From NCBI GenBank assembly GCA_037042915.1, contig CM073196.1, positions 806,001 to 870,000 of the forward strand: a DNA stretch of 64,000 nt, written 5' to 3'. Positions 5,192 through 15,651 of this stretch are shown here, piece by piece. The position numbers and the translations under genes are program-made. Each line of letters begins with the position of its first letter. Within the stretch, counting starts at the first letter, position 1. Below the pieces are notes generated by a model. The model was not told where the DNA came from. It saw only the letters and a list, made by a program, of their open reading frames with translations, and ran no database searches. The stretch comes from Auricularia sp. M13 (Eukaryota > Basidiomycota > Agaricomycetes > Auriculariales > Auriculariaceae).

Positions 5192-5196
5192 GATGT
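5192..5196. repeat. Target site duplication GATGT (left copy)
   Basis: GATGT directly precedes the left LTR and is repeated at 15647-15651 directly after the right LTR. This is the 5-bp duplication expected of a Ty3/gypsy integrase. Confidence 0.9.
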
Positions 5197-5482
5197 TGCA
5201 GCGAACCGTTACCTCATGTACTTAGGCCCCTATGCTAACTCGTATGACCTTTCCCTTTGCATCGCCTGACCGCGGGTTCCGCAACTACCGCAGTAAGTCG
5301 CAGTTCCCCGCAGTAGCATAGCCACCTGAATGCATGTATATAATGGAGGAGCTCGGGTTAGGAGCTCCTCAGACTTCTTGAACACGGATATATTCAGCCA
5401 CTCACGACTATCGAGTGAACTGACCGCGATTTGAGAAGTTTCTTGCCGCAAGCACTACCTAGTGAAACTAGCGAAGCTTACA
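5197..5482 (+). repeat. 5' LTR
   Basis: 286 bp, TG...CA bounded, matching 15361-15646 throughout by eye. It holds a TATATAA box at 5337-5343 and an imperfect hairpin around the two GGAGCTC motifs at 5348-5372. The bases after it (TTTTTTGAGTG) do not start with TGG, so no standard tRNA primer site is apparent. Confidence 0.95.
5337..5343 (+). promoter_or_regulatory. TATA box of the LTR promoter
   Basis: TATATAA lies about mid-LTR. Transcription would start roughly 30 bp downstream, leaving a leader of about 160 nt before the gag-pol ATG at 5528. The same box occurs in the 3' LTR at 15501-15507. Confidence 0.6.
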
Positions 5483-5527
5483 TTTTTTGAGTGTTTCCTT
5501 TTCTGTGTTTCTATCCGATAACTAACT

Positions 5528-8500
5528 ATGTCGTCGTCGCAGGGAACTGATCACCCCGTGCGTATGTCGGCAGACCGAGAGATTGTCTCTCAACTCGATA
5601 GTGGAGTATTGCGTACCCGGCCGCGTGCAGCTGCCGGCCGGACGCAGCGAGCTGCGGGTCAGCCGTCTGCCTCCGGCACGCAATCAGCGGATCCATCCGC
5701 TCCCTATCCACCAACCACCACCATCTCGACGAGCGGCGATGGCGCCACGTCACCGGATGTTGACCCGCTCACGGGCACAGTCCCTGTGACACCGCGCGCA
5801 GCTTCAAGAGCCTCGCACTCGTCTCCGCCAGCGCCGTTTGTGTCTGCAGCACGCGGCCCTGGTACGTCTTCACCGTTGCCACTTAGTGTAGCGGATACTA
5901 ATGAACCTCGGGCTCCTGACGAGGAGGCCCCGTTGCAGGAATACGACTCGGATTCGACCATTATGAACTGGAAGGGTGGCCGCAGCCCACCCGAGTCGTC
6001 GACCCGTTCGGTATTGCAGCGAACGGAGGGCAAGGCACGCGTGCCTTCGCCTGATATCACCCATCCACGCGGGATGGAGGGTGCTCGAGCTGAATCGCTC
6101 GCACCTACTACATTCTTGGCCGAATCAGACCCACCGCGCGCTACCGGGGCGCGCGCGACCTGGCCGTTACCACCAACAGACCTGTCGTCGGCGTTCACAA
6201 CCCCTCCCCCTCGCACGACGACTCAATCACGCACCGAGCCACCTGCTGCTGATGCAGGTGGCTGGACTATCCTTGATTCCATACGCCGTACTATCGCATC
6301 GGGCATGGAGGCGCTGGCAACACCGCGCGCCGCTGGGACGACTGGCCCATCTCGGGGAGCCGAGATGCGCGAAGAAGTTACTACCCTTCGGGAACCGACT
6401 GCTCGACGTATGTCTACTATGAGTATCACCACGGACACCTTCTCACCGACTGCTCATTCTTCTCGCCCTCGTCCATCGGTTACTTTTGATGTTCCCGAGG
6501 ATGTATCTGACATTGAGAGTGAATATAATACTCCTACTAGAACTGCTGAGAGTGAATCAGGAAAGTCAGATAAACCTCGAGTGGCGGCTTCCGTCTTGCA
6601 ATCCCCGCCACCAGAATATGAGTATGATTCAGCCAGCTCTAATGATAGAATTCCCGTAGTGCAAGAGATCCCAGAGGAAGAAAGGGACACCTTTGCATTC
6701 TACAGTCAGTATTACAAGGGCTGGTACACTGGCTGGGGGAGACCAGTGAGTTCGAATAAGCATGGTCCTCGCCGGTCAACTACTGAGGTAGTTGAGTACC
6801 CGGTTTACGCTGTCACCGAGACGGTCGCTGATCCAGTTAAGGTGCGATCTGCGTTGCGAGAAGCTCAGGACAAGGACAAACGAGCAGTTAAGAAGGGAAA
6901 AGGCCGTGATCCTCGAGAAAGACCTAATGATAATCCTCCAAGTACTCCCGCGCGTACTGCGACAGCTAGCAGTTCGAGGCTATCTACCGTACCTATACCT
7001 TCTTCTTCGACTCCAGCAGGTGCCCGAGTCCCAGTTCCGGCTAATAGTACCATATCGGCTCTAGGTCAGATGGCGCGATTGGGGCGTAGTTTCTTTGCGC
7101 CTGCTTCACCAGCTGGAGAAATTACTCGACAAAGCTTAGTTTCCGGTCAGCCAACTGCTACTTATGTTAAGCTACCTAAGGGTACCAACGCTCCCTTACC
7201 CCCTCCAGGAGGGATCCTTCAAGGACGTTTGCAAACTGACCCGAAATCGTCCCGAACATCCTCCAAACCCCAACCTTCGTCATCTCGTATTCTGCCGTCG
7301 CATTTGACTTCTCGTGGAAGAGCAGGAGGCGGCGGTGGAGGAGGAGGAAGTGGGGGACCACCAGACGATGAGGATCCCGGAGATGATGCAGAGGACGATG
7401 ACGCTGAAGACGACGATGGGGGAGATGAGACTGGCGCCGCGGAAGGCGATGATGAAGACGACTTTGAGGAGGAAGATGAGGAAGAGCGTCAACGACGCAT
7501 TATCCGTAACATGAAACTTCCTATGCCCACGTATGATGGGGAGGAAGACCTGGATAAGTATGAGGCGTTTGTATTCGAGTGGGACGACTGGATCGAGACC
7601 AAGGAATTGAATGAGAGACGGGCCATTCGCCTCATGGGAAGGGCTCTCTCTGGTGAGGCCAAAGTTTGGTATATGAAACAGGTAGCCATGAGTGCTTACC
7701 CTTGGACTACTCGCGAAATCTACCGCGAGTTGTACGAGAACTGTTTCTCGGATGACTTCCGAGAAGCACTGAGGACTAAGCTCATGAAGTCTAAACAGAA
7801 TGGACGACCGATTAAGGACTTTGCTAAGGACTTAGAAAACTTAGCGATCAGGTACCCTGATATAGACGAGTATGCTATCCGACGCATATTCTGGGAAGGC
7901 ACTGATCATTACATTCAACTGTTCTGGGCGGAGAAAGGACGCAGCCTAGAGTATGATGATATTAGCACTCTTCTAGTATATGCTCAACGAGCCGAACGAC
8001 GCGAAAAACTGCGTCAGAAGTTGCTCAAACAAGGAGGAGCACGATCGACGGACCCTGGTGCAACCGCTAAATCTGGACCTCCGGGATCGACACGGAATAC
8101 CAAAACGGGACAGAATGCCCGCTGGCTTTCCCGAGGAGGTAGTCGTCGAGGAGGGCGAAGCTTCGCCACTCGTAAGGTTACTACGACTGAGACGGTTAAG
8201 TCTAGCGCGGCAACTTCGGGTCACCCAAGGCCTGCAAATAGACAGGTTAAATCGAATGAATTGAGGCCAGGTTCCAAACTTACTGCGCAACAAGAAGCCG
8301 AGCACCGAGCTCAAGGGCTCTGTTTTCACTGCCACAAGTCTGGGCACATGGCAAACGCATGTCCTTTGCGTCAGGAAGCCCGTAGAAGTGGTGTGAGAGT
8401 AGCTGCAGCTACGATTTCGTCATCTGGTGATCCGGGGATCGAACGAAAAGTATATAAGGCGCGAGGGAGAGTTCCTACTTCCTCAATACGCACTTCTGCT

Positions 8501-11500
8501 GTACTAGCCATGGCTGCCTTCCTCCCAGCGTCCTCCGCCTTCGACTTTAGCGACTTCAATGTCGACTACACGCTCGCGCCCGACGAGAGACTCGCTTGGG
8601 CCATCCATGTCGAGCTCCTCGACTTCTTTCCACCTGAGACGGCGTTGAGAGCAGGGCTACAAGATGCAGCGGACCGCTTTGCGGTTGCTTACCCTTGTTA
8701 CTCGCAGGGACTGCATGTTCCTCACGGGGTATTGAAGGTCGTGGATGACGTCCGCAACTGCCTGTATACGGTGGAGCGCACAGATTTCACGCCTGAGGGC
8801 ATCAACATCGCGCGCATCATCCACCAGTTCCTCGGGTTGGATGAGAATCAGCTCGACGAGAAGGTACAACTCTGCACGAGGAACGTACCTTGGTTCGCTT
8901 CTGGAGTACCCATTCGGTGTGCACTCTCGTATATCTGCGGGTACTGGGTGCCCGCGGATAATTACATCCACGCCTGGGAGTTGGGGCACCCTAGATACCA
9001 GCGGTTCCTAATTCAGACGGACGCAGTGGACCTATGGGTGCGGGATTTGGCGACAAATCTTACCTATGAAGTCAGCGCCGCTGAACTAGCCCCGGGGATC
9101 CTCATTCGCGACTTGATTCGCAAACCTGAGCTGTTGCATAAGCCAGGCGCTCTCGTACGTTACTTGCCCGCTCGCCATAATCAATGGACTAACCTGCGCA
9201 GTATAAGCGACACGACGCGTCCCGTGACTGGGAGCCAGGAGAAGACTGGACGTGCTACCGTCAGCCTACAGTCTCAACCGAACTTGAGCTCACCATTCAC
9301 CGATACTGGATCTGGAAGAATGAGTTCGAGCAATCTCGCCCGCAGGATCGAGTGGAGAAAGGAGAAAAGTCGGACGGAGAAGTCGATCGCGCGCGTCTTC
9401 GACTCGATCTCGACGATATGGACGAAGCATTGGACTCGACGGAAGAAGAGGAGCTGGACGAAGATGACGCGTCCGTGGAGGTGCCAGGTAGCCCACCATC
9501 TGAACGCGGCTCGGTGCCGTCCGCGGACAGCTTGCCCGACCTGCTGCCAGTCAGCGATTCCTCGACCGAAGATATTGGTACCGCCTCATCTCCCTCGAGC
9601 ATTGCGTCTGACAGCTCGGCGGGTGAAGTCCAATCCGTGGCCTGGGAAGAATATGTTGACCGCGGCCATGGCGCGGGTTGGTACCGCTACCATGTCAGGT
9701 TCGAACATGGCGAGCCAGTCGATGTATCGGAGGAGTACTACGACTACGAGAGCGGAGATGCCCGTAGCGCGTGAGGAAGTCTCCGCGATTCGGCGTGGCG
9801 CTGCGCGAGTCAAGAACGAAGTCAGATTGTTGCCACTACCAATCTCTGTCAAAGTAAAGATTAACGGTCAAATATGCAATGCGTTTATAGATTCAGGATG
9901 TATGACTGACATGATCTCCACTACTGTCTCCGATCAGCTGAAACTGAAGTTGAAGCCCAAAGCAAAACCGTTGGACCTGTTGCTCGCGGTCGCAGGGTCG
10001 CGATCAAAGATCAATTACGAATGTGAGACCGAGTTTTCTTACCAAGGTATCCGCGAAAAGCGTACCTGGGATGTTGCTAATATTGACATCTACGACGTTG
10101 TACTAGGTACTCCGTTCTTATGGCAGCACTCGGTGATGATTGGATTTAATCCGACTCGCGTTCACATCGGCTCTAACGAATCGAAACCCTTCGAAGGAAG
10201 GGAAATGGTAGAATTAGTAACTGCAAGAGCGAATGCAGCACAAGTAAACGAGCCAGACCTACCAAAACTTCGAAATCTGATCTTCAAGGAGGCCGCGGAC
10301 TTGTTCCTCGAAGCTGCGAAGACGCCGTTGCCACCTTTGAGGGCCATAAACCATGAAATCCCGCTGAAAGACGTCAATAAGATGTATCCCTATCGTCCGT
10401 CTCGGTGTCCGGAGGCACTGAGAATGGTGTGGGTGCAGAAAAAGCTCGATTACCTGAATACGGGGCGTTGGCGATACTCTGCAGGCGGCACGTGCTGTCC
10501 TCTGATGATCCTACCTAAGCCGAAATCGAAGGATGGTGAAATAAAGATACGCACCGTTATTGACACGCGCTCGAGAAATGAGAACACGATCAAGGTTGCG
10601 GCTCCGCTGCCGGACATTGAGGAGATTCTGCGTAACGTAGTAAAACATAAGTACCGCAGCCTCATAGATGGAAAAGACGCTTACGAGCAGATAAGAGTGA
10701 GACCTGATCATGTGTCGCGAACCATGTTCAACACGCCGGATGGGACTATGGAAAGCCTTGTCATGCAAATCGGTGACTGTAACGCGCCAGCGACGTACCA
10801 GACGCTCATGAACCACATTTTTGCGCCCTACATAGGCGTCTTCATGGATGTATACCTAGATGATATTATAGTATACTCAGATTCAGCTGAGGAACACGTT
10901 GAGCACCTGAGAAAAATATTAGCGGTGCTCCGAAGGGAGAAGTTCTTTCTCAATCCCACTAAAATGCAAATATTTGCGGAAAACCTGGAGATCCTGGGGC
11001 ATGTAATCGACCAGGAAGGAATAAAGATGGATCCTCATAAAGTAGACAAGGTAGTGAATTGGCCGGTGCCTACTACAAAAGGTCTACTTATGTCATTCAT
11101 CGGTGCCGTGGGATTCCTCGCTCACGACTGCAAAGGAATCCGAATCCCTATGGGAGTGTTAGCTCAACTGATCGGGTCTACTAAGACATTCAAATGGACG
11201 GAAACTTACCAACGCGCCTTCGAGGAAGTCAAGCAGATAGTACATGACCATAGGAACCGCCGCAGGCATGCCATCGATTATAGCCTCAAGCAGGGACCTA
11301 TTAACCTCGTCACGGACGCGTCCTTGACCGGGGCCAGTGGTTATATCAGCCAGGGAGAAGACCTAGCTAGCGCGCGCGTCGTAATTTTCTGGAGCGGCAA
11401 GTTCAACAGCGCCCAGCAGAACTACACGACGCACGAGCGCGAGTTGCTAGCTATAATCGAATCACTGAAGCGTTTCCGACCTATGTTGCATGGTGTAAAG

Positions 11501-14500
11501 TTCAGGATATGCACCGATCACAAGTCACTCGTGCATTTCATGAAGCAGAAGGAGATGTCGCCGCGACAGGCGCGCTGGCTCAATGTTCTGGGCGAGTTCG
11601 ACTTCGAAATCCAGTATATTCCAGGGGTAGATAACAAGCTGGCCGATAGTCTATCACGCATATATGAAGGAGACCAGGATGGAACCGTTCGAGCGCCAAG
11701 CGAGATGGTGCGCGACGAGTCTGACTCGTCAGATAGCGACCAGTCCAGTCGAGCGCTACTATCGGCGCCCGTATACGTGGGCAAAGCTGTCTTGGTACCA
11801 CGAGACTGCCTCGTGCAGGTCTCCGCGGCGGTCACGAGACGAGAAGGGCCGGCAGGGGATGACGAGGTAGACCGTTCGGATCGCGATGACGAGATAGCAC
11901 AGCCGCGTAGATCGCGCAGACTTCAAGGCCAGCCAGCCACGCCCGAGAAGCGTCAAAATAGGAGTAGCGGGCTCGGACAGATGCGCGACGTCTCGCCATC
12001 GTCTACCGCCTCGAGTGGAGAAGAGAGCTCGGAAAGTGAGATCCATATTTGGCGCGGAGCCAGTAAGCACCCGGAAATCATCCGGAGGGCGGGCCGAAAC
12101 CGGCAGACCCAAACTCCGGTGCGTCCTGCTGAACACGAGGCTGCCAGTACCTCCAGGCAGCCACGTTCCCCATTGTTGGGAACTGCCAATGACAATAAGG
12201 TAAACCCAGCACAAGTCAACAATGGTACAGTCTCATCCACGTCTATTGAGCAGTCTCAACAACCAGACGTCGAGGATAGAGACAATCGGACGCCAGGTCC
12301 TGGGGACAATGCAGATCCCCCACGAAATGCTAATTCTGTGAATCCCGGTCAGGGACCAGGGCTAGTCCGCGTGATATCCAGCGCCGAACCGCAAGTTCAA
12401 TTACCTCATGACTTGGCAGGGCAGTATGGGGATGATAAATTCTTCCAACGCGTGTTGGCCTCCCCGACTGCGTATCGGAACTTCTATGTTATCGGAGCAG
12501 AAGGGAAGGAAATAATTTACATCACGACGGAAGACGGAGGGCGTGATCGGCTCTGTATCCCGGATATCCAAATCGGGAACCGGAGATTACGGAACGTCCT
12601 GATTGAGCAAGCGCATTCCATTCTCGCCCACTTAGGATCGTTCAAAACATTAACATTTCTTCGCCAGGAAGTCTGGTGGAAGGAAATGAGTCAAGATGTG
12701 AAGAGCTTTATTAATAGCTGTCATATTTGTCGTACCACGAAAGACGACAACCAGAAGCCGGTCAGGCTCCTGAAAACTCTCCCGGTTCCTACGCGACCAT
12801 GGCAGGTCATAGGAATAGATTTCGTAGGACCCTTACCTAAGTCCTATACTCAGCATGCATGGTTTGATCGCATTTGCACGATAATTGATCACTTCACGTC
12901 AATGGTACATTTGGTTCCAGCGCGAACGACTTACAAAGCCCCAGACGTTGCTGAATTACTGTTCGGAACAGTCTATAAGCTTCATGGACTGCCTGAGGCT
13001 ATAGTAAGTGATCGTGATACTCTCTTTACCAGCACGTTTTGGAGACGATTGCATGAACTCACGGGTGTCCAACTTCGCATGTCCACGGCTTATCATCCAC
13101 AAACAGACGGAATGACTGAGCGAGCAAACCGGACCCTAGGACAGATGGTTCGCCAATGTGTATCTGAGGCTCAAAATGAGTGGGCCGCCAAATTACCCGC
13201 CATTGAATTTGCGATGAATAGTGCCACTTCGGCCTCTACCGGATATTCGCCGTTCTATTTAAACTCGGCTCAACAGCCTGTTTCTCTATCCTGGGAAAGG
13301 TCTACTAACTTCCCAGGCGTGCATAAGTTCGTCGAGAACCTGAAAGAGACCATGATAGCGGCACACGATTCTATCATTAGTGCACGAGTGAACCAAACTC
13401 ATCAAGCCAATAAACATCGACGAGAAGTTCATTTCCAGGTCGGACAGCTGGTCTATCTAAGCACTAAGAACCTTAAGCTTGCTAAAACTAAATCCCGTAA
13501 GCTTGTACCCAAGTACATTGGACCTTACAAGATTATAAAGGAGGTAACGCCAGGAGCGGCGTATACGTTGGAATTACCGCCCGAGCTAGTAAAGCGGAAG
13601 TTACATCCTACGTTTCATGTCAGTCTCCTTCGGGAATATATCGAGAGCGACGATTCTCGCTTTCCCGAAAGGCAAGTATCCAATCTGCTTACGTTCGGAA
13701 GCGACTCGCTTGAAAAGACCGTCAGCGAGGTAGTAGGGTACCGATGGGTCGACAATAAACCCATTTTCTACGTGAGCTGGTCAGATGGATTTACTACGGA
13801 AGAGCCGTACGAGACCGTGGCTCAGCTACAGGCTTTTGATGACTTCTGCGATGCACGAGGCATCAACCCAAACCGGAAGTTCGGAGCAATTCCTATCTCC
13901 GACTTTGATACCGCGGCGAACGCCGCGGCATCATTGATCATCCCAGTTGGGAGTTATCATAGAATGAGCACACGGTCCTCGTCCACTCTTCCCGAACACG
14001 AGTCATTACGCCATTTCCTTTGTCTGGGGTATAAAAGACCTCCTCTGACGACCCAGCGCTCCTTGCAACTATCAGTCGCATCCAGTCAGATCGTATTGAC
14101 TCGCTCTCCACTCCACTTCACTGCTATGTCTTTCATCTCGCGCTTCACTCGCCCTACCAACATGTCGGACTCGCTCTTCGCCAAGTGCGCCGACTGGGCC
14201 ACTCGCATGGACCGCGCCGTTCATGGCACGGGTGTTCTGCCGATGGAAGAGGAGCCTCTCATGTACGAGACGTTCCGTCGTTCCAACCCCACCGCCATCG
14301 ACCCTGTGCTTGCTCGATCTATGCAGCAGCATCAGCGGGAGATGATGATGGCGCGCGAGGCTAGCTCTGCCCGCGCTATGGTCAACGGCAACCCCCGCCA
14401 GGAAGGGGCGATGGTTCCCCTCCAGGCCGTGCAGGTCATGTTCGATGCTGCCCGGTCCCTGCTCACGACCTCGCAGCGAGACGCTCGCTGGCAGATGCAG

Positions 14501-15289
14501 TCAGCCATGCGACTTCTCAGTCGATCGAACGCCTCGACGCCTTTGCCCGGATTCCAACGTCGCGTCTGGAATCGTCGGCAGGCCGAATGTGCGTTCTGTT
14601 TATGCTCTAGTCATGCCGACCGACTGGTTAACTCTGGTCTTATAGATGCCCGACGCCCTCGCAACTCGATTCGCGCCGAACATGGGAACACTCATCTCCC
14701 CGTTCGGCGCGCGTACGTCGAGCGCGACGAACGCGGCGAATCTCCTCCTGCCTATCGCCGTCGCGACATCTTCCATACCCCTTCGAGCCCCGGTCGCCGT
14801 TACCGCCGTCCCGGAACCCCTCACCCTCGAACTGGTCGACGACTCGATGACATCGACCAGATCATGCGCGACGAGACTCCTGTGCCCGCGTCCGTCCAAC
14901 CAGGTGCCGACGAACCCAACCTCTTGGACTTGCAATCGCGTGCTGCTACGGTCGACAAGGATTCCGTCACCGGCTCGATCACGCCTCGTGCCCCGTCGCC
15001 AACCTCGTCCGAGGCTGCCCCTTACGTGGATCGAGAGGTGTTCGCGTTCCAGCCTCACGCCGTAATGGACGCCTTCCCAAGTTCCGTTCGCATTACACCT
15101 ACCGAGTTCCCTGAAGTCCCTCGCGCTGATCATTCGACCCCTGGTGGCGTCTCAACAATGCCGCCTGCACCTGCCAACTCCACCTATGCTACGAGCGTTG
15201 TTGATGGACTTGAGCAGCTGGACTTGGGCGCGGCGGACCATCTCCTCAACGAATTTTTGGTTAGCGAGACCGCGAACCCTTATGCTTGA
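5528..15289 (+). CDS. Gag-Pol polyprotein (single 3,253-aa frame) of the gypsy element
   Basis: Order of parts: a long low-complexity Ser/Thr/Pro-rich N-terminus; a Gly run and acidic tract (about 598-655); a retrotransposon Gag domain (about 661-804); a CCHC knuckle from Cys932 (CFHCHKSGHMANAC); an extra segment from residue 995; aspartic protease with FIDSG (Asp1455); RT with YLDD (1776-1779); RNase H with VTDAS (Asp1930); an integrase HHCC finger (about 2363-2400); the catalytic triad Asp2431, Asp2495, Glu2531 (exact D-35-E); a chromodomain-like segment (about 2731-2775, VSWSDG); and a C-terminal extension from residue 2867. The frame has no stop or shift. The ATG at 5528 is the first good start after the LTR. 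Residues about 1225-1415 are compositionally odd (basic, Cys/Trp-rich), because the same DNA encodes an exon of a nested gene in another frame. Confidence 0.93.
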   Translation: MSSSQGTDHPVRMSADREIVSQLDSGVLRTRPRAAAGRTQRAAGQPSASGTQSADPSAPYPPTTTISTSGDGATSPDVDPLTGTVPVTPRAASRASHSSPPAPFVSAARGPGTSSPLPLSVADTNEPRAPDEEAPLQEYDSDSTIMNWKGGRSPPESSTRSVLQRTEGKARVPSPDITHPRGMEGARAESLAPTTFLAESDPPRATGARATWPLPPTDLSSAFTTPPPRTTTQSRTEPPAADAGGWTILDSIRRTIASGMEALATPRAAGTTGPSRGAEMREEVTTLREPTARRMSTMSITTDTFSPTAHSSRPRPSVTFDVPEDVSDIESEYNTPTRTAESESGKSDKPRVAASVLQSPPPEYEYDSASSNDRIPVVQEIPEEERDTFAFYSQYYKGWYTGWGRPVSSNKHGPRRSTTEVVEYPVYAVTETVADPVKVRSALREAQDKDKRAVKKGKGRDPRERPNDNPPSTPARTATASSSRLSTVPIPSSSTPAGARVPVPANSTISALGQMARLGRSFFAPASPAGEITRQSLVSGQPTATYVKLPKGTNAPLPPPGGILQGRLQTDPKSSRTSSKPQPSSSRILPSHLTSRGRAGGGGGGGGSGGPPDDEDPGDDAEDDDAEDDDGGDETGAAEGDDEDDFEEEDEEERQRRIIRNMKLPMPTYDGEEDLDKYEAFVFEWDDWIETKELNERRAIRLMGRALSGEAKVWYMKQVAMSAYPWTTREIYRELYENCFSDDFREALRTKLMKSKQNGRPIKDFAKDLENLAIRYPDIDEYAIRRIFWEGTDHYIQLFWAEKGRSLEYDDISTLLVYAQRAERREKLRQKLLKQGGARSTDPGATAKSGPPGSTRNTKTGQNARWLSRGGSRRGGRSFATRKVTTTETVKSSAATSGHPRPANRQVKSNELRPGSKLTAQQEAEHRAQGLCFHCHKSGHMANACPLRQEARRSGVRVAAATISSSGDPGIERKVYKARGRVPTSSIRTSAVLAMAAFLPASSAFDFSDFNVDYTLAPDERLAWAIHVELLDFFPPETALRAGLQDAADRFAVAYPCYSQGLHVPHGVLKVVDDVRNCLYTVERTDFTPEGINIARIIHQFLGLDENQLDEKVQLCTRNVPWFASGVPIRCALSYICGYWVPADNYIHAWELGHPRYQRFLIQTDAVDLWVRDLATNLTYEVSAAELAPGILIRDLIRKPELLHKPGALVRYLPARHNQWTNLRSISDTTRPVTGSQEKTGRATVSLQSQPNLSSPFTDTGSGRMSSSNLARRIEWRKEKSRTEKSIARVFDSISTIWTKHWTRRKKRSWTKMTRPWRCQVAHHLNAARCRPRTACPTCCQSAIPRPKILVPPHLPRALRLTARRVKSNPWPGKNMLTAAMARVGTATMSGSNMASQSMYRRSTTTTRAEMPVAREEVSAIRRGAARVKNEVRLLPLPISVKVKINGQICNAFIDSGCMTDMISTTVSDQLKLKLKPKAKPLDLLLAVAGSRSKINYECETEFSYQGIREKRTWDVANIDIYDVVLGTPFLWQHSVMIGFNPTRVHIGSNESKPFEGREMVELVTARANAAQVNEPDLPKLRNLIFKEAADLFLEAAKTPLPPLRAINHEIPLKDVNKMYPYRPSRCPEALRMVWVQKKLDYLNTGRWRYSAGGTCCPLMILPKPKSKDGEIKIRTVIDTRSRNENTIKVAAPLPDIEEILRNVVKHKYRSLIDGKDAYEQIRVRPDHVSRTMFNTPDGTMESLVMQIGDCNAPATYQTLMNHIFAPYIGVFMDVYLDDIIVYSDSAEEHVEHLRKILAVLRREKFFLNPTKMQIFAENLEILGHVIDQEGIKMDPHKVDKVVNWPVPTTKGLLMSFIGAVGFLAHDCKGIRIPMGVLAQLIGSTKTFKWTETYQRAFEEVKQIVHDHRNRRRHAIDYSLKQGPINLVTDASLTGASGYISQGEDLASARVVIFWSGKFNSAQQNYTTHERELLAIIESLKRFRPMLHGVKFRICTDHKSLVHFMKQKEMSPRQARWLNVLGEFDFEIQYIPGVDNKLADSLSRIYEGDQDGTVRAPSEMVRDESDSSDSDQSSRALLSAPVYVGKAVLVPRDCLVQVSAAVTRREGPAGDDEVDRSDRDDEIAQPRRSRRLQGQPATPEKRQNRSSGLGQMRDVSPSSTASSGEESSESEIHIWRGASKHPEIIRRAGRNRQTQTPVRPAEHEAASTSRQPRSPLLGTANDNKVNPAQVNNGTVSSTSIEQSQQPDVEDRDNRTPGPGDNADPPRNANSVNPGQGPGLVRVISSAEPQVQLPHDLAGQYGDDKFFQRVLASPTAYRNFYVIGAEGKEIIYITTEDGGRDRLCIPDIQIGNRRLRNVLIEQAHSILAHLGSFKTLTFLRQEVWWKEMSQDVKSFINSCHICRTTKDDNQKPVRLLKTLPVPTRPWQVIGIDFVGPLPKSYTQHAWFDRICTIIDHFTSMVHLVPARTTYKAPDVAELLFGTVYKLHGLPEAIVSDRDTLFTSTFWRRLHELTGVQLRMSTAYHPQTDGMTERANRTLGQMVRQCVSEAQNEWAAKLPAIEFAMNSATSASTGYSPFYLNSAQQPVSLSWERSTNFPGVHKFVENLKETMIAAHDSIISARVNQTHQANKHRREVHFQVGQLVYLSTKNLKLAKTKSRKLVPKYIGPYKIIKEVTPGAAYTLELPPELVKRKLHPTFHVSLLREYIESDDSRFPERQVSNLLTFGSDSLEKTVSEVVGYRWVDNKPIFYVSWSDGFTTEEPYETVAQLQAFDDFCDARGINPNRKFGAIPISDFDTAANAAASLIIPVGSYHRMSTRSSSTLPEHESLRHFLCLGYKRPPLTTQRSLQLSVASSQIVLTRSPLHFTAMSFISRFTRPTNMSDSLFAKCADWATRMDRAVHGTGVLPMEEEPLMYETFRRSNPTAIDPVLARSMQQHQREMMMAREASSARAMVNGNPRQEGAMVPLQAVQVMFDAARSLLTTSQRDARWQMQSAMRLLSRSNASTPLPGFQRRVWNRRQAECAFCLCSSHADRLVNSGLIDARRPRNSIRAEHGNTHLPVRRAYVERDERGESPPAYRRRDIFHTPSSPGRRYRRPGTPHPRTGRRLDDIDQIMRDETPVPASVQPGADEPNLLDLQSRAATVDKDSVTGSITPRAPSPTSSEAAPYVDREVFAFQPHAVMDAFPSSVRITPTEFPEVPRADHSTPGGVSTMPPAPANSTYATSVVDGLEQLDLGAADHLLNEFLVSETANPYA
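8451..8457 (+). promoter_or_regulatory. Internal TATA box for the nested gene at 8510
   Basis: TATATAA inside the gag-pol frame, 53 bp upstream of an ATG in good context (GCCATGG). The spacing fits a short fungal leader. It implies transcription independent of the LTR. Confidence 0.5.
8510..9774 (+). CDS. Nested spliced gene A inside the gypsy element (405 aa, unknown function)
   Basis: Exon 1 is 8510-9154 and exon 2 is 9202-9774. The 47-nt intron 9155-9201 has donor GTACGT, branch-like CTAAC and acceptor GCGCAG. Removing it moves translation exactly from the gag-pol frame to the next frame, where a natural sequence continues to TGA at 9772-9774. The product has a globular N-terminal half (about 215 residues, starting MAAFLPASSAFDF, many aromatic residues) and an acidic Ser-rich C-terminal half with EEEELDEDD and a final aromatic/acidic patch (EEYYDYESG). 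It matches no family I recognise. It lies between the Gag zinc knuckle and the protease. Because exon 2 overlaps the open gag-pol frame, 9202-9774 is dual-coding. Alternatively, splicing of the LTR transcript would make a Gag-A fusion ending at 9774. Confidence 0.65.
14030..14036 (+). promoter_or_regulatory. Internal TATA box for the nested gene at 14126
   Basis: TATAAAA (in GGGGTATAAAAGACC) lies 90 bp upstream of the ATG at 14126 and follows the chromodomain region. It repeats the arrangement seen at 8451. Confidence 0.5.
14126..15289 (+). CDS. Nested gene B at the 3' end of the gypsy element (368 aa if spliced)
   Basis: The ATG at 14126 is in frame with gag-pol and follows a TATA box. A probable 57-nt intron (14589-14645; donor GTGCGT, branch-like TTAAC, acceptor TTATAG) is a multiple of three and contains no stop, so both spliced and unspliced readings stay open to the stop at 15287-15289. 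The spliced product has a helical N-terminal half rich in Met/Arg/Gln, then an Arg/Pro-rich linker and a Ser/Pro-rich acidic tail. The function is unknown. The retained intron would add a short Cys-containing stretch (CAFCLCSSH). It may be translated alone from its own promoter or as the polyprotein's C-terminal extension. Confidence 0.5.
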   Translation: MSFISRFTRPTNMSDSLFAKCADWATRMDRAVHGTGVLPMEEEPLMYETFRRSNPTAIDPVLARSMQQHQREMMMAREASSARAMVNGNPRQEGAMVPLQAVQVMFDAARSLLTTSQRDARWQMQSAMRLLSRSNASTPLPGFQRRVWNRRQAECAFCLCSSHADRLVNSGLIDARRPRNSIRAEHGNTHLPVRRAYVERDERGESPPAYRRRDIFHTPSSPGRRYRRPGTPHPRTGRRLDDIDQIMRDETPVPASVQPGADEPNLLDLQSRAATVDKDSVTGSITPRAPSPTSSEAAPYVDREVFAFQPHAVMDAFPSSVRITPTEFPEVPRADHSTPGGVSTMPPAPANSTYATSVVDGLEQLDLGAADHLLNEFLVSETANPYA

Positions 15290-15348
15290 AGAACTTTGTA
15301 TTTACTTCATCAATTGCCCCTCGCCTTCATTTCGCGATCTGCGATCGC

Positions 15349-15360
15349 GAGGAGGGCGAA
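15349..15360 (+). other. Polypurine tract
   Basis: GAGGAGGGCGAA immediately before the 3' LTR, with one interrupting C; the expected plus-strand primer site of the element. Confidence 0.65.
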
Positions 15361-15646
15361 TGCAGCGAACCGTTACCTCATGTACTTAGGCCCCTATGCT
15401 AACTCGTATGACCTTTCCCTTTGCATCGCCTGACCGCGGGTTCCGCAACTACCGCAGTAAGTCGCAGTTCCCCGCAGTAGCATAGCCACCTGAATGCATG
15501 TATATAATGGAGGAGCTCGGGTTAGGAGCTCCTCAGACTTCTTGAACACGGATATATTCAGCCACTCACGACTATCGAGTGAACTGACCGCGATTTGAGA
15601 AGTTTCTTGCCGCAAGCACTACCTAGTGAAACTAGCGAAGCTTACA
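15361..15646 (+). repeat. 3' LTR
   Basis: 286 bp, same ends and internal sequence as 5197-5482 by eye, followed by the right copy of GATGT at 15647-15651. Identity of the LTRs argues for a recent insertion. Confidence 0.95.
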
Positions 15647-15651
15647 GATGT

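Follow-up and report, generated by a model that had tools for sequence, protein, structure and literature searches.

The nearest precedents for the locus considered here, as far as the consulted portions of the papers cited below go, are found in the long terminal repeat (LTR) retrotransposons Cer1 (CERV), BARE1, the Arabidopsis Copia elements (shGAG) and Ty1 (Ty1i). In Cer1, a Gypsy/Ty3 element of C. elegans, the accessory protein CERV is made from a spliced RNA of five exons and is, by experiment, required for the export of the genomic RNA; its exons 1–3 lie in the gag frame, exon 4 in a different frame, and the last exon returns to the polyprotein frame to end in the 3′ open reading frame (ORF) (PMC10309623). 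BARE1, a Copia element of barley, has one gag-pol frame whose gag portion contains a 104-nucleotide (nt) intron, and the frame shift caused by its removal meets a stop three residues past Gag (PMC3735527). In EVADE and other Copia elements of Arabidopsis, the introns behind the short GAG isoform (shGAG) are longer than host introns and coupled to premature polyadenylation (PMC8892269), and in yeast Ty1 an internal promoter within the GAG ORF yields a subgenomic RNA (Ty1i) with a shorter product, p22 (PMC5834202). Here, we describe a Ty3/gypsy LTR retrotransposon of Auricularia sp. M13, located in a stretch of 64,000 nt (C4:806001-870000, hereafter the window), along with its relatives, which were sought across the same genome (14 contigs, 52 Mb).

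The element spans positions 5197-15646 and is assigned to Ty3/gypsy by its LTRs, its target-site duplication and the order of its Pol domains. A single gag-pol frame runs without interruption from 5522 to 15289 (3255 codons), and an exon, a candidate intron and a second exon sit between the Gag zinc knuckle and the protease:

8451..8458, + strand: TATA-like box TATATAAG, 59 nt upstream of the ATG, a putative internal promoter
8510..9154, + strand: exon 1, a 215-codon conserved domain in the gag-pol frame, whose in-frame start ATG recurs in relatives
9155..9201, + strand: candidate intron, 47 nt, phase 0, GTACGT...CTAAC...CAG, with the gag-pol frame open across it
9202..9774, + strand: exon 2, an acidic, Ser-rich stretch of 190 codons read in the -1 frame and closed by TGA
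9155..9757, + strand: gag-pol frame across the intron and exon 2, a basic by-product linker with residues little constrained and stops depleted

The start ATG at 8510 has the context AGCCATGG, and the intron signals are GTACGT at 9155, CTAAC at 9189 and the CAG ending at 9201. Exon 1 is in the gag-pol frame and only exon 2 is off it; at the sequence level, removing the intron shifts the frame and excludes Pol from the product, exon 2 ending at its own stop as the protease region begins, i.e., before the protease. All these parts (TATA box, ATG, intron and 190-codon exon in another frame) had been proposed in a first-pass annotation and were found where it placed them. Its description of the gag-pol frame over exon 2 as open and by-product-like also agrees with our figures (net charge +28 vs. 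-31 in the exon-2 frame; Trp plus Cys 5.8% vs. 3.7%). We consider it probable that, in a Ty3/gypsy clade, an accessory gene with an intron is overprinted on the region between nucleocapsid and protease, the unspliced RNA giving Gag-Pol and the spliced RNA an exon-2 tail that replaces Pol. Because relatives in the same genome keep the arrangement, it looks like a real working switch and not a chance pattern.

The likenesses and differences given next are again limited to the consulted portions of the cited accounts. Like Cer1, the window element is Gypsy/Ty3, has a 3′ ORF after pol and would have a leading exon in the gag frame followed by an exon in another frame over the polyprotein; unlike in CERV, exon 2 has a stop of its own ahead of the protease, one intron is proposed, the internal TATA box is a predicted promoter, and the gene is a prediction from sequence (PMC10309623). 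As for a last exon of the CERV type, i.e., a 3′ ORF joined across pol, exon 2 of the window element stops before the protease and a 3′ ORF (ORF3) is present, splicing to ORF3 not having been searched for. BARE1 shares the small intron whose splicing shifts the frame and removes Pol, as predicted here, but its shift meets a stop at once, whereas that of the window element opens a conserved exon of at least 136 codons overprinted on the polyprotein; moreover, BARE1 is a Copia element, while the window element has the gypsy Pol order (PMC3735527). The shGAG system likewise derives both an unspliced GAG-POL and a spliced, short form of GAG from a single transcription unit, unlike the window element without an overprinted exon in that account (PMC8892269). 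Ty1i parallels the putative internal promoter inside gag, for which the evidence here is the recurrence of TATA box and ATG, but the Ty1i/p22 system has no alternate frame in its account (PMC5834202). No description of such an arrangement in fungi was found in titles and the starts of abstracts, which, the subscription literature being thinly covered, is weak evidence of novelty; in a survey of fungal LTR elements, neither "intron" nor "splic" occurs in the main text (PMC3248453).

The exon-1 domain matches at least 25 places in the genome, 25 of which were all examined, and 24 of these have a GT[AG]NG...YAG phase-0 intron of 47, 50, 53, 56 or 59 nt. The GTRNG and YAG signals and a length of 2 modulo 3 were search criteria and hence are not independent findings, while the position of the intron was free within a range of about 140 nt and otherwise no criterion. 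The GT falls at one codon in 24/24 introns, directly after query residue 215 (ungapped): 16 of the 24 exon-1 matches end at this very residue, and the other eight at residues 207–214, with the GT further on by precisely the missing number of codons. As a background, among 486 Val codons elsewhere in the scanned pieces of these elements, 2 satisfy the intron rule. A CTRAY motif lies 8–13 nt upstream of the acceptor in 12 introns; three actin introns from this genome, their boundaries set by visual inspection, measure 55, 56 and 59 nt and begin with GTACGA, GTAAGG and GTAAGC. Actin introns of this size, like the Tf2-1-like SH3 domain that follows the integrase, point to a fungal source. In 23 of the 24 copies, the splice leads to at least 136 open codons in the -1 frame (136–273, with 343 in D60 and 564 in D55, both running on into pol), the last one being D53, where a one-base difference closes the frame after 34 codons. 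In the +1 frame, taken as a control, runs longer than 110 codons occur in 5/24 copies compared: A49–A51, which are one subfamily (145–148 codons over the junction), the shifted copy D53 (249 codons) and, further downstream, the broken F70. The exon-2 protein of the window element was itself found free of stops at five other places (56, 44, 43, 43 and 37% identity); these homologues and the recurrent intron support the spliced accessory exon that had been proposed.

Ratios of nonsynonymous to synonymous substitution rates (dN/dS), computed in both frames over the same DNA as the first-pass annotation had recommended, fall between 0.09 and 0.33 for exon 2 and between 0.93 and 2.52 for the gag frame: 0.09 vs. 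2.52 (E67/E68), 0.15 vs. 2.06 (D57/D60), 0.18 vs. 1.72 (D57/D56), 0.24 vs. 0.97 (window/A48), 0.33 vs. 0.93 (A49/A52) and 0.31 vs. 1.54 (D58/E67). For exon 1, the synonymous rate is saturated in the pairs window/A48 and A49/A52. These values indicate that purifying selection acts on exon 2 and not on the gag-pol residues encoded by the same DNA; at the protein level, E67 and E68 are 89% identical in exon 2 and 63% in the gag frame. Within clade A, four-fold sites differ less in exon 2 than in exon 1 (0.44 vs. 0.68 for window/A48), which is what a role for the second frame would predict, an effect not seen in D or E pairs (exon 2 vs. exon 1: 0.40 vs. 0.30 for E67/E68, 0.43 vs. 0.42 for D57/D56).

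What the gag-pol frame does appear to retain is its openness: it is open through the intron and exon 2 in 16/24 copies. With expectations obtained by shuffling synonymous codons inside exon 2, 12 representatives have 2 gag-frame stops vs. 22.86 expected (nominal Poisson 3e-8). They were hand-picked from 22 rows by dropping near-identical or broken copies (A50, A51, C61, C62, D66, D55, D56, D60, E69 and F70, of which A50, D66 and F70 hold one gag-frame stop each). Counting 21 of the 22 rows (D55, whose frame is shifted, being left out) gives 5 stops vs. 37.3 expected, and a selection of six copies, drawn from six groups, yields 0 vs. 9.8 (nominal 5.5e-5), clade A being represented by the stop-free window copy, where A48 or A52 would add one. 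A stop of D58 that falls inside the intron lies outside these counts. The third frame has 2–11 stops in each of the 12 representatives, near expectation in the window copy (11 vs. 9.6) and below it in the A49–A52 and D65 copies. Re-initiation of Pol at the ATG at 9758 was considered and rejected: among the copies where the protease directly follows exon 2, only the window copy has this ATG, so that Pol needs the open gag frame. With the stops depleted and this ATG not shared, translation of the unspliced RNA straight across the region as Gag-Pol is the most parsimonious interpretation. Depletion and openness together favour dual coding under a constraint to keep Pol open, as previously suggested.

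The proposed switch would work as follows. The unspliced RNA would be the genome, and one frame would be read through the intron and exon 2 as Gag-exon1-linker-Pol, the linker being a by-product with the main duty of containing no stops. Removal of the 47–59 nt intron would shift the frame by -1, the ribosome then entering exon 2 and stopping ahead of the protease region or at its start. Splicing would swap Pol for an exon-2 tail, acidic in the window element: retention of the intron would yield Gag-Pol and genomes, and its removal a Pol-less product with exon 2.

Whether the product is also expressed on its own depends on the TATA box. TATAA(A/G) stands 57–66 nt upstream of the in-frame ATG in six lineages (the window element, A48, A49–A51, A52, B59 and C64), with TATAAA at matching codons in A48, A49–A52, B59 and C64. 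The Tyr codon within the box is TAT in 6/6 of these lineages, although TAT is the rarer one: in the stretch that begins 260 nt upstream and closes with exon 1, it accounts for 14 of 50 Tyr codons once these six are set aside. The resulting probability is 0.28^6, about 5e-4, nominal given that the lineages are related. The tally leaves out F70; D60 is disrupted upstream, and F39 has no TATA box. The gag-frame peptide ahead of the ATG (SAVLAM / SAAVRVM) is conserved while third positions vary, so that this stretch is also selected as protein; perhaps it is a cleavage site. An in-frame ATG lies beside such a SAV-like peptide in the 21 copies compared (at hand-picked places, F70 not among them) and in G76, D60 being broken there.

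Several observations weigh against the proposed overprinted gene. GATAAA stands in place of the TATA box in C61–C63 and D65/D66, and the box is missing from the D53–D58, E and G76 copies (CATAAG in D53 and D55–D57, CTTAA(A/G) in D58 and E67–E69, CCTAAA in G76), although these groups have a well-conserved intron and exon 2. No CTRAY motif was found near the acceptor of the other 12/24 introns, and in G76 the first YAG (49 nt) gives the wrong frame, the next one (53 nt) having been used. The gag frame is interrupted in 8/24 copies, by one stop in A48, A50, A52, F70, D66 and D58 and by a shift in D53 and D55. The lineages share ancestry, which makes the Poisson values nominal, and synonymous shuffles of single copies are mostly not significant (P 0.01–0.54; 0.62 for D55, which runs into pol), only the pooled counts being so. 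Finally, F39 matches exon 1 and keeps the gag frame open but lacks a -1 exon; the reverse transcriptase (RT) tree places it in a sister group (branch support 93–96/91–95), which hints at an origin of the intron on the stem leading to the other clades. As to interruptions, the first-pass annotation had named exon-2 stops in copies with a conserved gag-pol frame as the adverse outcome; the copies point the opposite way, exon 2 staying open in 23/24 of them.

Of the conservation expected in other copies, then, the intron and the second frame held, and the TATA box did not outside clades A, B and C64. The same division applies to separate expression from an own TATA box: since the box recurs in three clades and not in others, an internal promoter is plausible for the closer kin of the window element, and not as a general trait. 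Because it is missing where intron and exon 2 are conserved, a Gag-exon1-exon2 product might be made from spliced, LTR-driven RNA. For the window element, we lean slightly, in a nearly balanced choice, towards a free exon1-exon2 protein of 405 residues from a short RNA begun at the TATA box at 8451; alternatively, exon1-exon2 would form the C-terminal end of a Pol-less Gag.

How far could other explanations account for these data? A nested gene that is wholly separate and in every case transcribed from a TATA box of its own is a serious candidate, if somewhat short of an even prospect: TATATAAG stands 59 nt ahead of an ATG in good context, the box recurs at -57 to -66 in six lineages and a similar one precedes ORF3, but exon 1 doubles as a conserved segment of gag-pol, and the D53–D58, E and G76 copies lack the box, with GATAAA in two further groups. 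Conversely, splicing might set the ratio of Gag to Gag-Pol with no internal gene at all, LTR-driven RNA being partly spliced into Gag-exon1-exon2 and otherwise read as Gag-Pol, while TATA box and ATG would be incidental and the Met part of the cleavage-site-like peptide. We hold this to be possible but doubtful. The uninterrupted frame of the window element has no frameshift to set such a ratio, the peptide ahead of the ATG is kept as protein, the copies without TATA box retain the intron, and BARE1 and the Arabidopsis Copia elements offer precedents in the parts of their accounts relied on here (PMC3735527, PMC8892269); yet a switch of this kind could do with a stop beyond the splice and would not require at least 136 codons of exon under purifying selection, and it leaves aside the recurrence of the box in A, B and C64 with its biased Tyr codons, as well as the in-frame ATG by the SAV-like peptide in 21 copies and G76.

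The remaining explanations fare much worse. That a host gene with promoter and intron was captured by the element is very improbable: TATA box, ATG, intron and stop do resemble a complete small gene, but 21/25 exon-1 places adjoin RT-region matches in open frames of 199–3324 codons, the exon-1 domain is spread across deep clades, and it has no convincing Pfam or PDB relative. We give even less credit to -1 ribosomal frameshifting into exon 2 with a coincidental GT...AG, even though exon 2, wherever it is present, has the frame -1 with respect to gag. No X XXY YYZ heptamer lies at the junction in 12 copies scanned from the exon-1 start to 60 nt into exon 2, the ones seen elsewhere being CCCGGGG 64 nt upstream of the intron in the window copy and one 499 nt upstream in D65. 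Besides, the -1 frame opens only 17–59 nt after the end of the exon-1 match in 21/24 copies (64 nt before it in C64 and F70; D53 is shifted), and a shift there would therefore meet a stop; G at position +5, itself a search criterion, is kept while the encoded residue varies between R, C and S. As for a chance open frame beside a chance intron, short GT...AG stretches are common in any sequence, but recurrence, selection and stop depletion all contradict it, and we regard it as refuted by the E67/E68 ratios in the two frames of the same DNA, leaving it a negligible share of belief.

For exon 1, Pfam searches with the window protein and 9 members gave no convincing relative (best E 0.13), and neither did PDB by sequence (best E 0.77) or by profile (best E 0.09, a histidine kinase), these matches being taken as chance; the exon-1 alignment took in 9 members. 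A single-sequence AlphaFold2 model of exon 1 was discarded (mean predicted local distance difference test score 39), and none of six pattern matches in viral contigs was a relative. The net charge of exon 2, -31 in the window copy, ranges from -31 to +1 among copies (run-on D55 left out). An LLxVSDSS motif followed by an acidic-Ser stretch occurs in exon 2 of the window copy, A48, A49, A52, B59 and C62; it is reminiscent of SUMO-interacting motifs.

The rest of the window element is laid out as follows:

5197..5482, + strand: 5′ LTR, 286 nt, TATATAA at 5337, preceded by the target-site duplicate GATGT at 5192-5196; 100% identical to 15361-15646
5528..8410, + strand: Gag, with ATG at 5528, a long N-terminal part, a capsid-like region and a CCHC zinc knuckle at about 8318-8365
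9758..13900, + strand: Pol, with aspartic protease, reverse transcriptase, RNase H, integrase (H2C2, rve) and a Tf2-1-like SH3 (Pfam)
14030..14037, + strand: second internal TATA-like box TATAAAAG, upstream of ORF3; CATAAAAG in A48 and TATAAAATC in B59
14126..15289, + strand: ORF3, 3′ region in the gag-pol frame, beginning at an ATG
15361..15646, + strand: 3′ LTR, followed by the target-site duplicate GATGT at 15647-15651

The two 286-nt LTRs being identical, with GATGT duplicates flanking both ends, the insertion is probably recent. The order protease-RT-RNase H-integrase is that of gypsy elements (Pfam: protease 26-97, RVT_1 256-412, RNase H 475-609, H2C2 937-991, rve 1007-1109), the matches to Retrotrans_gag (E 0.0019), zf-CCHC (E 0.026), the protease models and rve lying below the curated cut-offs. 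Ahead of the capsid region, at 5528-7510, a segment of about 660 residues in the same frame looks, on visual inspection, enriched in Pro, Ser and acidic residues. After the integrase, at about 13700-13830, the residues VVGYRWVDNKPIFYVSWSDGFTTEEPYETV look chromodomain-like to the eye, Pfam giving no such match at E up to 1. The region 14030-15289 resembles a second nested gene, with TATAAAAG at 14030 and an ATG at 14126 after the integrase; ORF3 is 48% identical in A48 and partially conserved in B59 (30%), with no match in the stretch taken for A49. One further element of clade A by its RT, L054 (C6:1161900-1167900), has no exon-1 or capsid match in the stretch taken and may be an internally deleted or rearranged copy.

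By analogy with CERV, which exports Cer1 RNA, the product might be a regulator favouring unspliced genomic RNA or particle assembly, although we would not bet on this role. Somewhat more credible, but still tentative, is that the clade has a retrovirus-like complex genome: a continuous polyprotein frame with two nested accessory genes (exon1-exon2 and ORF3), each with a core promoter of its own, of which exon1-exon2 is overprinted and accessible through splicing only, with retention making Pol and openness maintained by selection against stops alone. From a single RNA, LTR elements have to obtain Gag in large amounts, Pol in small ones, and unspliced genomes; if the overprinted accessory gene is real, a splice-based answer to this need would exist in a gypsy group, in elements where introns are not expected, alongside frameshifting and protein decay. 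The same DNA would then encode a selected protein in one frame and face little beyond a "no stop" demand in the other, a natural experiment in which the cost of overprinting would therefore be measurable, and a CERV/Rev-like accessory function would become directly testable in fungi.

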